Shown in pieces: positions 20,097 through 59,366 of a stretch of 59,556 nt of DNA. The position numbers and the translations under genes were made by a program. Below the pieces are notes generated by a model that ran no database searches, was not told the DNA's origin, and worked only from the letters and a program-made list of their open reading frames with translations. The stretch's first letter is position 1, and each line of letters begins with the position of its first letter. Source of the DNA: SAR202 cluster bacterium bin22 (lineage in GTDB: Bacteria; Chloroflexota; Dehalococcoidia; Lucifugimonadales; UBA3495); contig MPMM01000021.1 in the NCBI GenBank assembly GCA_002238505.1, positions 1-59,556 on the forward strand. The letters are read 5' to 3'.

Positions 20097-20549
20097 CTAA
20101 ACCGGGGATGTCTCTTCCCGGTTCTGGCGTTCGGAAGCGCAGCGGCGGCACCACCCGTGAAAGTCCACCCGCTGCCAGGCAACATCGAAGTTCGACTCCT
20201 CGGAAATCAACGCCTTCAGCCGCAGCACGGCTTCCTGACCCAGGCTGGTATCAACCACGTTCCCGCACGAGATGCACACCAGGTTGACGTGGGGCTCCAG
20301 GTTGGACTCGTAGCGCGACAGCTTGGCAAAGGGCAGTTCCTGAATCAGGCCGCTCTTTTCCAGCACACCCAGGGTGGAATAGATGGTGGCCAGCGTCATT
20401 GAGGGGAAGTGGTCCCTCACCCGCTCGTAAATCTGTTGCACCGAAGGATGGTCAGTGGAGTTAAGCACCGCCTCGGCGATGGCCAGCCGCTGGGGCGTTA
20501 CCCGAACTCCCCACTCCCGAAGCCAGGCCACCAGTTCCTGCTGAGTCAT
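20097..20549 (-). CDS. Fur/PerR-family metal-dependent repressor
   Basis: 150 residues. N-terminal winged helix: GVRVTPQRLAIAEAVLNSTDHPSVQQIYERV then LATIYSTLGVLEKSGLI. C-terminal dimer and metal domain: HVNLVCISCGNVVD and a second CRRC near the end make the two-CxxC structural zinc site. The single-His PHVN segment suggests a PerR-like regulator, but the sensing ligands cannot be assigned by eye. The frame is open to 20642; ATG 20549 is chosen because TGGAG lies 6 nt upstream and the family starts there. Targets unknown; a second Fur-like gene lies at 22236. Confidence 0.88.
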   Translation of the reverse strand: MTQQELVAWLREWGVRVTPQRLAIAEAVLNSTDHPSVQQIYERVRDHFPSMTLATIYSTLGVLEKSGLIQELPFAKLSRYESNLEPHVNLVCISCGNVVDTSLGQEAVLRLKALISEESNFDVAWQRVDFHGWCRRCASERQNREETSPV

Positions 20550-20675
20550 ATGCGCTCCAGGGCGGAACTTGCTCCCCGCCCCAGGGACGTTGCGCTGCCT
20601 TGCCGACACCGTCCCTTCGAATGGACAAATACTGCCAATCAACTATAAACCCGAGTCACCAGGTACGCAAGTTTG

Positions 20676-20871
20676 CCCAACGACCAGGGTCTTTCGATGT
20701 TCCAAGATGTCCCTTCCCCCTTGACGGGGGAAGGTTAGAGCCTGTCCTGAGCCTGCCGAAGGAATGGGGGTGAAAGTGCAAGGGAACGAGTCATCTGGCC
20801 GAAGAACGCCCCCTCACCCTAACCCTCTCCCGCCTGGGGAGAGGGAAAATCGAAAGACCCTGGCCCAACGA
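20676..20871. mobile_element. 180-bp MITE with 15-bp terminal inverted repeats and 8-bp target duplication
   Basis: CCAGGGTCTTTCGAT at 20684-20698 is the exact reverse complement of 20849-20863. The element is flanked directly by CCCAACGA on both sides (20676-20683 and 20864-20871). There is no coding sequence inside; the interior is a pair of R4-type units, one split by an R1 unit. The transposase family that moves it cannot be named from this. Confidence 0.75.
20711..20776. repeat. R4 repeat interrupted by an R1 repeat
   Basis: CCCTTCCCCC..GGGGGAAGGTTAG is followed by about 24 bp of R1 (AGCCTGTCCTGAGCCTGCCG...) and then ATGGGGGTGAAAG. At 39176-39216 the same R4 unit is uninterrupted. Confidence 0.7.
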
Positions 20872-20910
20872 CAGGACAGCCTTCCAGATTCGGTGGCGCG
20901 GCTTTGGCCC

Positions 20911-20943
20911 TCCGCAGGGCCAGACCTGCGTGTCTGCCCTGTC
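20911..20943. repeat. R5 repeat
   Basis: CCGCAGGGCCAGACC..GTGTCTGCCCTGTCC, similar to 13352-13382. Confidence 0.5.
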
Positions 20944-21151
20944 CCCGACCCAAAACCACCGGAAACGGACCTCCGCCTCAGGCAACTGAACGACCGTAAC
21001 CAGTCAAAGTCCATTCCGGGTCCCCCAGCTTGGATACTGTCGCCACCGGCGTGTTAATATCTCCCGAAGAACTCCAAATTGGCTACCATATGGCGTTTCC
21101 CCTTTTCCCGCATTTCAGGTATGCCCCAGTTTCGTACCAGGAGGAGATAAT

Positions 21152-22147
21152 ATGAGCGCGGCGAAGACAATCTATATCGGCATGCACGATGGCGTCTGTT
21201 CCGTAACCAGCGAGGATGGCGGCTCCTCGTGGCAGCAGGGACCCGTTACCGCCTTGCCCCACGCTGCGGCCCGGCTGGCGGCCAGCAGGGTAAATCCCCA
21301 GCGGGCCTGGCTCGCGGCCTACGAAGCCGGTGTGTACCGCACCGATGATGGCGGCAAAAGCTGGACGCGCCTGGATTCATACCCCTCCCCGTATGCCCAC
21401 AGTGTTCTGGCCCACCCCACTGAGGAGGACACCCTGTTCGTGGGCAGCGAACCGGCTACCGTGTACCGCTCCGACGACAGCGGAGACACCTGGACCGAAC
21501 TGGAGGGGTTCACCCGTGTGCCCGAGTCAGTTGACTGGGGCTTCCATTCCCCCACCCGCGACTCTCACGTGCGGGACCTGCGCGTTGCCCCCAACGACGC
21601 CAACCGCCTTTACGCCGGCATCGAGGTGGGTGGCATGGTCTGTTCCGGCGATGGCGGCGCCAACTGGCAGCAGTTGCCCGGATTGAACGACGACATTCAC
21701 TGTGTGGCCCTCAGCGACGCCCGCCCCGAAAGCGTCTATGTGGCCACGGCCCGCGCTCCCTATCGCTCCAGCGATGGCGGCGCCAACTGGCAGCCCATCA
21801 ATGAGGGACTGGACCGGCGGTACACCCTGCACATATCCCCCGCTCCCGACGATGCCAGCCTGGTTCTGGTGACCGTGTCCGAAAATGCCCGCCGCCTCAA
21901 TCCCATGTTCTACCGCTCAACCGATGGCGGCGATAGCTGGCAACTGGTCGATGAAGTAGGACAGGGCACCGAGCCTGCCGAGATGGTGGTGGCCTTCGAA
22001 TGGGACCCGTCCGACCCCAGCCGCGTGTATGCCGGCGCCGACGGAGGCCAGCTTTACCAGAGCACAGACCGGGGTGTCTCCTGGGAGGAACTGCCGGTAC
22101 GGTTATCATCCGTCGCAGTAGGGGCACTGGCCGTAAGTGGCGGCTAG
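21152..22147 (+). CDS. Asp-box (BNR) beta-propeller protein
   Basis: 331 residues with seven Asp-box motifs (S/T-x-D-x-G-x-x-W): SEDGGSSW, TDDGGKSW, SDDSGDTW, SGDGGANW, SSDGGANW, STDGGDSW, STDRGVSW. They close successive blades of a sialidase/VPS10-like propeller. Sialidase catalytic Arg triads are not evident, so it is probably a binding or scaffold protein. No signal peptide. ATG 21152 follows AGGAGGAG. Paralogous in layout to the protein at 24337-25308; a Fur-like gene lies between them. Confidence 0.85.
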   Translation: MSAAKTIYIGMHDGVCSVTSEDGGSSWQQGPVTALPHAAARLAASRVNPQRAWLAAYEAGVYRTDDGGKSWTRLDSYPSPYAHSVLAHPTEEDTLFVGSEPATVYRSDDSGDTWTELEGFTRVPESVDWGFHSPTRDSHVRDLRVAPNDANRLYAGIEVGGMVCSGDGGANWQQLPGLNDDIHCVALSDARPESVYVATARAPYRSSDGGANWQPINEGLDRRYTLHISPAPDDASLVLVTVSENARRLNPMFYRSTDGGDSWQLVDEVGQGTEPAEMVVAFEWDPSDPSRVYAGADGGQLYQSTDRGVSWEELPVRLSSVAVGALAVSGG

Positions 22148-25317: not shown

Positions 25318-25508
25318 GCAGGGGCGCACGGCTTCGCAATTCGGCACAGGAGCGCGCGGCTTGCATATTGGCACAGGGGCGCAATGCATACACATCGGCG
25401 TAGGGGCGCACGGCTTACATATCGGCACAGGGGCGCACGGCTTGCATATTGGCGTAGGGGCGCAATGCATACACATCGGCGTAGGGGCGCACGGCCGTGC
25501 GCCCCTAC
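25318..25508. repeat. 27-bp tandem array ending in a perfect R3 palindrome
   Basis: Six 27-bp units beginning GC(A/G)(C/T)AGGGGCGCA (first unit slightly short) with two body types: ACGGCTTGCATATTG and ATGCATACACATCG. The last unit runs into a perfect 28-bp palindrome at 25481-25508 with GTAGGGGCG arms and a CACGGCCGTG core, identical to 58253-58280. Because 27 is a multiple of 3 it is open in several frames; I treat it as non-coding. Confidence 0.75.
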
Positions 25509-38931: not shown

Positions 38932-39156
38932 CGCAAACCCCAAAAAGCCAACTGGGTATTACAGCAATTATATACGATTCTACTGGAACTGCGGATTCGC
39001 CAATCATCAAGGCAACGACCATGCAAGCCGCAACCTGTATTCGGAAAGTAGCACGGGGCCAAAATTGCTGTCAAGCGATGGGTGCCGTCGAGAGCGCCGT
39101 ACCCAGGGCATTCGCGTTCTGGATTCAGGCAATGGGCGGCAGACATCAGCAAGCCA

Positions 39157-39284
39157 TAAGAGACTATTTCAAAATCCCTTCCCCCTTGACGGGGGAAGGT
39201 TAGGATGGGGGTGAAAAGCAATCTCTTTTGCTGTCGCATTTTCCCCAATGCTTTGCCTTGAATAATTTTGAGATAGTTTCTAAG
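39157..39284. mobile_element. MITE candidate with TAAG target duplication, carrying an R4 unit
   Basis: AGACTATTTCAAAAT (39161-39175) and ATTTTGAGATAGTTT (39265-39279) are inverted repeats with two mismatches. TAAG lies outside each (39157-39160, 39281-39284). The interior includes the intact R4 unit 39176-39216. No ORF. Confidence 0.5.
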
Positions 39285-39285
39285 T

Positions 39286-39395
39286 CAATGTCGCCCAGCG
39301 CCCAGCCGAGGGCCCGAAAACTTTCCTGCAGACATCCGCAATGCATAAGTCAATGTAGCCCTGAGCTTGCCGAAGGGCCTGAAAACCTTCCTGAC
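39286..39395. repeat. Two R1 repeats in tandem
   Basis: GTCAATGTCGCCCAGCGCCC... at 39286 and GTCAATGTAGCCCTGAGCTT... at 39349, each ending in GAAAA.CTTCCTG. Confidence 0.6.
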
Positions 39396-39846
39396 TATCC
39401 GGTCTCGGGCCCTAAAGCCGGTCTGCAGGATGGTGTTTGCATTCTCTAATGCTTCCGGCACCACAATCTCCTGAAACGGGCTTGCCCTGGCAGCACATCG
39501 AATCGAGCGGTCTATATCTGCAGGGCGGTTTCGAAACCTGCCCTGGTCGCCTTTCGACTTTTCCACCCAGGGAAAGTTGCCGCTTTTGAGGGCCACACTT
39601 ATACTGCGCCTTTGGCCCCCTGTTTCCCGAAAGCCACGATGCCCGCTTGTTCCCTGGAATTTTGGAGGCGTGACAAGCTGACATGGTATCTGGGCCACTG
39701 TGGAGGCTCCGCAGAGTTCTACGGTTGCCGCTCGCCTCCGCCACCGTTACTTCCGTCGGGAGGAGAGGCAAACATACTGTGGATATTACGGCGGCCGCTG
39801 GTACCCAATTGTCTGGTAATGCCCCTGAAACACTTTGGGGAGGGCT

Positions 39847-45976: not shown

Positions 45977-46072
45977 CGTCGTTCCGGCGCAGGCCGGAAT
46001 CCAGGCAGGGTCATTCGATTATTTTGGTAGAGTCTCTTCCACCGTTCGCCCTGAGCCCGTCGAAGGGCCGCC
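45977..46072. repeat. R2 then R1 repeat
   Basis: CGTCGTTCCGGCGCAGGCCG..AATCCAGG, then ACCGTTCGCCCTGAGCCCGT..CGAAGGGCC. Confidence 0.65.
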
Positions 46073-46129
46073 CGGAATAGTTCTCCAAGTTCACCACGAA
46101 CGGACTTGAGGACTTGCCACCGACAATCG

Positions 46130-46155
46130 AAAGACCCTGGATTCCCAGGGTCTTT
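46130..46155. terminator. Hairpin using the MITE terminal sequence
   Basis: AAAGACCCTGG pairs with CCAGGGTCTTT around ATTC, followed by TTCTGT on the plus strand. With the preceding ATCG the left arm is the same 15-mer (ATCGAAAGACCCTGG) as the right end of the MITE at 20684-20863. It could terminate the histidine-kinase operon on the minus strand. Confidence 0.5.
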
Positions 46156-58252: not shown

Positions 58253-58280
58253 GTAGGGGCGCACGGCCGTGCGCCCCTAC
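58253..58280. repeat. R3 perfect palindrome (CACGGCCGTG core)
   Basis: A 28-bp perfect palindrome with GTAGGGGCG arms, identical to 25481-25508. Confidence 0.8.
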
Positions 58281-59285: not shown

Positions 59286-59366
59286 TTCCTCCACCTCCAC
59301 CCAAACGGGGCTGCAGGGGCCAGTCTACCACAGGGCAGGGCAAGCGCATTTCAGCTTTGTGGCAAG

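Follow-up and report, generated by a model that had tools for sequence, protein, structure and literature searches.

The palindrome-rich element that we analysed at positions 20685-20862 of a 59,556-nucleotide stretch of DNA (hereafter the window) is almost certainly a non-autonomous ISAs1-type MITE, and one carrier of repeats among several. The MITE itself is an ordinary element and represents a new family, which we named F1, of a known kind. Our search of the literature on ISAs1, MITE, REP, Chloroflexi and the end sequences, to which most subscription journals and ISfinder were outside coverage, retrieved no description of F1 in the texts available to it; the single text hit to an end sequence, PMC13431470, concerns a fungal virus. 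One cassette that is common, letter for letter, to two MITE families with unrelated ends was likewise not met in the literature searched.

Boundaries of the element and its family in the genome

The window element is 178 bp long (20685-20862, plus strand) and has the layout GCCCAACGAC / CAGGGTCTTTCGAT ... ATCGAAAGACCCTG / GCCCAACGAC. Its terminal inverted repeats are perfect over 14 bp, the left one, CAGGGTCTTTCGAT, at 20685-20698 on the plus strand and the right one, CAGGGTCTTTCGAT on the minus strand, at 20849-20862. A 10-bp direct repeat, GCCCAACGAC, adjoins both ends (20675-20684 and 20863-20872). Nowhere else in the window do perfect 14-bp inverted ends, spaced 60-250 bp apart, have a 10-bp direct repeat on their outer sides. 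The initial annotation had described a MITE of 180 bp with perfect 15-bp ends and an 8-bp target duplication; the inverted ends and the direct repeats are indeed perfect, but their limits had to be redrawn. As the base before CAGGG varies among the genome copies (CCAGGG, GCAGGG, TCAGGG), the first base of the 15-bp end belongs to the flank and not to the element. The end was thus set at CAGGG, and therefore the element measures 178 bp and the duplication 10 bp.

The element has no transposase ORF and no coding capacity. It lies between a Fur-family gene (20097-20642, minus strand; PF01475 match, E 6.8e-24) and a Vps10/BNR-type gene (21152-22147, plus strand), and an influence on the neighbouring Fur-family gene is possible. 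Folding showed a strong structure (z -4.68) because of the inverted ends and the palindromes; a palindrome in the right half, CCCTCTCCCGCCTGGGGAGAGGG (20823-20845, plus strand), folds with a 9-bp stem. A search of positions 20400-21200 against Rfam gave zero matches.

The genome of origin (G000) comprises 4.39 Mb in 58 contigs and its assembly is 97% complete. Searching it with the 15-bp end, the check that the initial annotation had proposed, returned 35 forward and 35 reverse matches with up to 1 mismatch and 0/0 with the reversed-pattern control; further copies are thus present. Pairing of 14-bp ends (up to 4 mismatches in total, 60-260 bp) within the fetched stretches gave 40 rows, of which one overlapping duplicate was dropped. 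The resulting 39 paired F1 copies span 134-191 bp and fall into 32 of type A (134 bp or more, usually 134) and 7 of type B (154-191 bp, the window element included). A second F1 copy in the window, at 46006-46139 (plus strand), is of type A, 134 bp long, and its target-site duplication is not preserved (3-4 mismatches).

We then looked at the duplications of all 39 copies by length of the repeat. Results showed that 10-bp repeats were perfect in 7/39 copies and had at most one mismatch in 15/39, the corresponding figures being 2/39 and 6/39 at 9 bp; at 11 and 12 bp there were none. An 8-bp duplication was rejected on account of the variable first base of the end and of the counts at this length, 0 perfect and 1 with up to one mismatch among the 39 copies. 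In total, 21/39 copies carried a 9- or 10-bp repeat with at most one mismatch, whereas 1000 flank shuffles gave 0.7 such copies on average and never more than 4. The remaining 18/39 had at least two mismatches, and some of them form one end of a larger composite. The duplicated sequences are copy-specific, except in neighbouring or nested sets of F1 copies.

These duplications bear on another reading of the element, namely a REP/BIME-type palindrome cluster whose outer arms merely resemble transposon ends and whose flanking repeat arose by chance or slippage. Such a cluster would account for the REP-like palindromes of the interior and for the strong fold of the whole. On the contrary, copy-specific duplications of 9-10 bp in 21/39 copies largely refute it, and the ends match those of ISAs1 elements, so that we give this reading almost no credence. 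F1 combines terminal inverted repeats and target-site duplications with a multicopy, non-coding body under about 300 bp that holds no transposase gene, and its 39 copies with ends matching ISAs1 elements of relatives bear out the annotation as a MITE. It resembles in this, and in its strong fold, the bacterial MITEs listed in PMC3733652 (RUP, NEMIS, ERIC, Nezha and others), and it shares the same general traits with MITEPye1, of IS1182 type (PMC11578231).

At some places of the genome F1 copies are neighbours. At C53:499258-499534 two type A copies stand in tandem with a single target repeat between them, common to both, and similar neighbouring copies were seen at C12:49222-49522 and C9:32099-32438; it looks as if insertion beside an existing F1 copy were favoured.

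Insertion site and age

We located the homologous place in four congeners (G001-G004), and the window element was missing from 4/4. The left flank can be aligned with G002 (84%) and G003 (83%) over 132 bases and runs about 7 bases past the junction, with one target copy (GCCCGCCGCC compared with GCCCAACGAC), while the right flank picks up again about 240-290 bp further on, at 85%. Judged from these alignments, the two congeners have a fair, though not a perfect, empty site. Of the empty site in relatives that had been predicted, the single target copy and the missing element were recovered, but homology on the right extends only those 7 bases or so. A clean empty site was rejected, as the sequences differ beyond this point and the spacer is hardly alignable. 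At the start of the spacer stands an ISAs1-like end, though of a different type, and G002 has a repeat there as well.

The initial annotation had also read the perfect duplication as a sign of recent insertion. A perfect 10-bp repeat is a poor sign of recency, because perfection may persist for long by luck. Absence from all four congeners gives a recent insertion weak support, but the window element differs from the type B consensus at 5/177 aligned bases. Type A copies are 1.5-9.0% from their own consensus, and with such divergence the F1 copies do not represent a recent burst of identical elements.

The intergenic spot occupied by the window element may be an insertion hot spot. ISAs1-like ends of other types, together with litter repeats, were noticed at or near the homologous place in G002 (L142), G003 (L143) and G007 (L145).

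ISAs1 elements of relatives and F1 composites

We asked whether an ISAs1 transposase gene accompanies the F1 ends. In the own assembly none was found, with 0 matches to NF033564, 0 to the ISAs1 protein of the relative G026 (E up to 10) and 0 at the DNA level; therefore, the partner is lost, missed or elsewhere. As neither the element nor the genome contains a transposase gene, F1 is classed only as a non-autonomous ISAs1 derivative. A candidate for a transposase between long-spaced ends, a 2980-bp pair on contig C13, was discarded since it consists of two separate copies, of 134 and 136 bp.

The exact 14-bp end occurs in 24/99 related genomes (own included) and the reversed control in 1/99. 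On contig VXOI01000230.1 of Chloroflexi bacterium isolate SB0662_bin_29, in the public set (G026:C226:14723-15947), we found a 1225-bp IS that CAGGGTCTTTCGATTATT bounds on both sides; it contains two ISAs1 reading frames, which match NF033564 (transpos_ISAs1) with E 5.7e-31 and 2.5e-22 and PF13808 with E 1.3e-21. This is the sole complete IS with these ends; a frameshift splits its ORFs, and its flanks show no duplication. In G092 (C26) the same end leads into an ISAs1 N-terminal region (61% identical), which the contig end cuts off, and in G048 (C379) an ISAs1 C-terminus (59% identical) extends up to the same end. The transposase gene between the same ends that the initial annotation suggested looking for was hence not found in the own assembly, but ISAs1-family sequence with identical ends exists in these three relatives.

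ISAs1 matches were present in 34/197 genomes searched, all four congeners among them. In this small sample the end sequence tracks the transposase group, because identity to the G026 protein is 54-60% for the ISAs1 proteins that two congeners have with ends such as CAGGGTCTTTTCATT, and 32-45% for proteins with CAGGGCAATCGC and other ends. Nine ISAs1 elements of relatives (L091, L092, L093, L100, L125, L126, L129, L132, L140) are flanked by duplications of 9-10 bp that contain one mismatch at the most. F1 therefore carries the hallmarks of the ISAs1 family (NF033564, PF13808 + PF01609), namely CAGGG ends matching a member and the 9-10 bp target duplication measured on the relatives' copies, and is unlike it in having no transposase gene and an interior made of palindromic repeats. 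We propose that an ISAs1 DDE transposase which the lineage possesses, although no gene for it turned up in this assembly, would have bound the CAGGGTCTTTCGAT ends in trans and moved the stretch between them, leaving the 9-10 bp duplication; the enzyme would later have been lost, or was not assembled.

How the short element came to have these ends could be explained in the classical way, as an internal deletion derivative of an ISAs1 element whose middle decayed later. The first 18 bp (CAGGGTCTTTCGATTATT) are indeed common to the IS and to type A. Past about 14-18 bp, however, the IS ends resemble, by eye, neither type A nor type B, and the interiors are repeats that are also present outside the MITE. 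We therefore regard a deletion origin as quite unlikely; the F1 interior consists of palindromic repeat cassettes also found elsewhere, rather than being a shrunken IS.

Short pairs of these ends exist in relatives too. After exclusion of long chance pairs, of one IS end and of two loci that are repeats, 15 pairs were considered; 7/15 are flanked by a duplication with no more than one mismatch (L054, L059, L063, L069, L071, L078, L085), and their interiors comprise at least five palindrome classes, as sorted by eye.

F1 ends also bound composites of 550-1040 bp. A shared sequence of 400-600 bp, beginning with the variant end CACGGTCTTTCGAT, adjoins several type A copies. Among the outer flanks of 7 composites, a perfect 10-bp repeat was found in 3/7 (C16:1067033-1067742, C39:20512-21211 and C16:217150-217909), a repeat with two mismatches in 3/7 (C13:287-984, C13:104454-105009 and C16:400445-401307, of which the last was judged by eye), while 1/7 (C47:52867-53903) had no repeat. 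As the 10-bp repeats surround the wholes, the pairs of ends have moved the DNA lying between them; two nearby F1 copies would thus be able to mobilise what separates them. This recalls the Tn3-derived TIMEs and TIME-COMP, in which, according to the part of PMC4133298 available, two miniature elements mobilise intervening DNA into composites. As presented in that part, the TIMEs have Tn3-type ends and carry plasmid genes, whereas F1 has ISAs1-type ends, 10-bp duplications and a cargo of repeats.

The interior cassette and a second MITE family

The window element carries at 20710-20775 (plus strand) a palindromic cassette of 66 nt, which includes a 24-nt sub-module, AGCCTGTCCTGAGCCTGCCGAAGG (20739-20762, plus strand), present in 4/7 type B copies and missing from 3/7. 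The cassette accordingly exists in a short form of 42 nt and in a 66-nt form with the 24-nt insert, and this with/without variation falls at the same point in F1 and in a second MITE family, F2. F1 contains both forms (3 short, 4 long), as does F2, and both are also seen among cassettes that stand alone or in arrays.

F2 has ends of the type GAGACTATCTCAAAAT, with 59 matches at up to 2 mismatches (control 2). In 17 copies examined it measures 120-185 bp, and identical TTA or TAA stands on both sides in 9/17, which is the 3-bp TNA duplication used as a criterion for IS5/IS1031-type MITEs; by this duplication F2 may be of the IS1031 type. A member lies in the window at 39160-39280 (plus strand), with ends GAGACTATTTCAAAAT and GAAACTATCTCAAAAT, TAA on both sides and the 42-nt cassette. 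It is enclosed by a probable older element, F3 (39104-39489, plus strand), whose ends are like those of the CAGGGCAATCGC ISAs1 elements with 4 and 2 mismatches, and for which no clear target-site duplication was found. Further litter repeats lie within 39104-39489 beside the nested F2 MITE.

F1 and F2 have the cassette alone in common. Local alignments between them end at the cassette edges, with raw scores of 6-10 outside. The 66-nt cassette of the window element is identical in 66/66 positions to that of an otherwise unrelated F2 element (G000:C4:127842-127986, copy L159), and the three short F1 cassettes are identical to the cassette of F2 copy L155, so that, within the set of copies compared, F2 offers an exact match to 4/7 F1 cassettes. 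Differences are few throughout (0-2 to the nearest F1, 0-3 to the nearest F2), and because of this the comparison gives sharing and not direction. In the bacterial MITEs described in the available parts of PMC3733652 and PMC11578231 we saw no equivalent of ends that enclose several unrelated interiors, as those of F1 do, or of one cassette common to a second family with unrelated ends.

We also tested where the repeats of the interior occur in the genome. The 27-nt type B core, CCTTCCCCCTTGAYGGGGGAAGGTTAG, has 103 matches when up to 3 mismatches are allowed; for the type A core, with up to 2 allowed, the number is 171, and the control gave 0 in both searches. Of each core, 100 listed places were analysed. 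F1 ends are found within 170 bp of 8/100 listed type B places, one of which is close to F2 ends as well; F2 ends alone are close to 27/100. The other 65/100, made up of 39 array and 26 single places, are outside both MITEs. Among the 100 listed type A places, 38 are near F1 ends, 37 in arrays and 25 single, and several of 20 inspected singles proved to be worn F1 members (L248, L250, L251, L252, L255). By blastn the cassette was also found at several places in G009, G010, G017, G023 and G024. In seven other genomes, 20/20 cassette loci inspected are outside F1 and F2 ends, one of them with an F1 pair about 80 bp away.

These counts allow weighing the suggestion of the initial annotation that the MITE is a vehicle that spreads the repeats. 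It is partly borne out. Each jump does carry repeats along, and in a stronger reading F1 could be the main vehicle spreading the litter repeats through the genome, as the 38 type A places in F1 and the worn members among the apparent singles would suggest. However, F1 holds only 8 of the 100 listed places of the window element's cassette, compared with 27 for F2, 39 for arrays and 26 that are single, and the 20 loci of the other genomes all lie outside both families. A role of F1 as main vehicle is thus unlikely: because the cassette repeat is mostly outside F1, here and in other genomes, it is not confined to this family or explained by it alone.

A tentative explanation, to which we give less than even chances, is that the litter palindromes form a shared cassette pool, in which the ends of unrelated transposons repeatedly frame one set of repeats and cassettes pass from one MITE family to another by recombination. 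The carriers in such a pool, proposed with equal reserve, might be the ISAs1 type with 10-bp duplications, the TNA type and the older ISAs1 type. The pool would fit the data because a cassette is identical at 66/66 positions across families that do not align otherwise and because the same ends enclose several interiors across the order. Exchange between the unrelated families seems to have proceeded via recombination or gene conversion among the approximately 100 dispersed copies. If a shared pool is true, repeats without a transposase of their own are spread by many transposases.

REP palindromes of the GTAG and CGTC super-families, as the available text of PMC3733652 describes them, are likewise small, dispersed and of high copy number, and some window repeats have a CGTC-like tag; unlike the REPs described there, the palindromes here are inside elements bounded by inverted repeats and target duplications. 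The window cassette has neither tag at its edges, the CGTC-like repeats being elsewhere in the window. When the genome was searched for a REP-associated tyrosine transposase (RAYT), PF01797 matched once, weakly (E 3.5e-4) and over part of its length. In the part of PMC3733652 available, CGTC repeats are reported without a dedicated transposase, their mobilisation by many transposases is raised as a possibility, and the question of how REP-like palindromes spread without a transposase is left open. Here the repeats are caught in two kinds of transposon with unrelated ends, and the sharp edges reveal the cassette common to both carriers. Because of these two carriers and sharp edges, the question of palindrome spread becomes testable by sequence comparison in this genus.

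Other repeats were noted along the way. The type B cassette forms tandem arrays outside MITE ends, for example at C40:133541-133774, C25:2685-3190 and C16:797202-797747 of G000, many with a spacing of about 68-70 bp. In contig coordinates both cores show an orientation bias, the type B core being found 88 times forward and 15 reverse and the type A core 119 and 52 times, numbers that arrays inflate and in which contig orientation is arbitrary. At 59336-59353 the window has an CAGGGCAAGCGCATTTCA end, which is of the ISAs1 group 1 type and precedes CGTC-like palindromes; when up to 3 mismatches are allowed, the own genome contains 53 such ends (control 0). Finally, a 27-bp tandem array (GGGGCGCACGGCTT...) at 25319-25508 closes with the perfect palindrome GTAGGGGCGCACGGCCGTGCGCCCCTAC, which recurs at 58253-58280.
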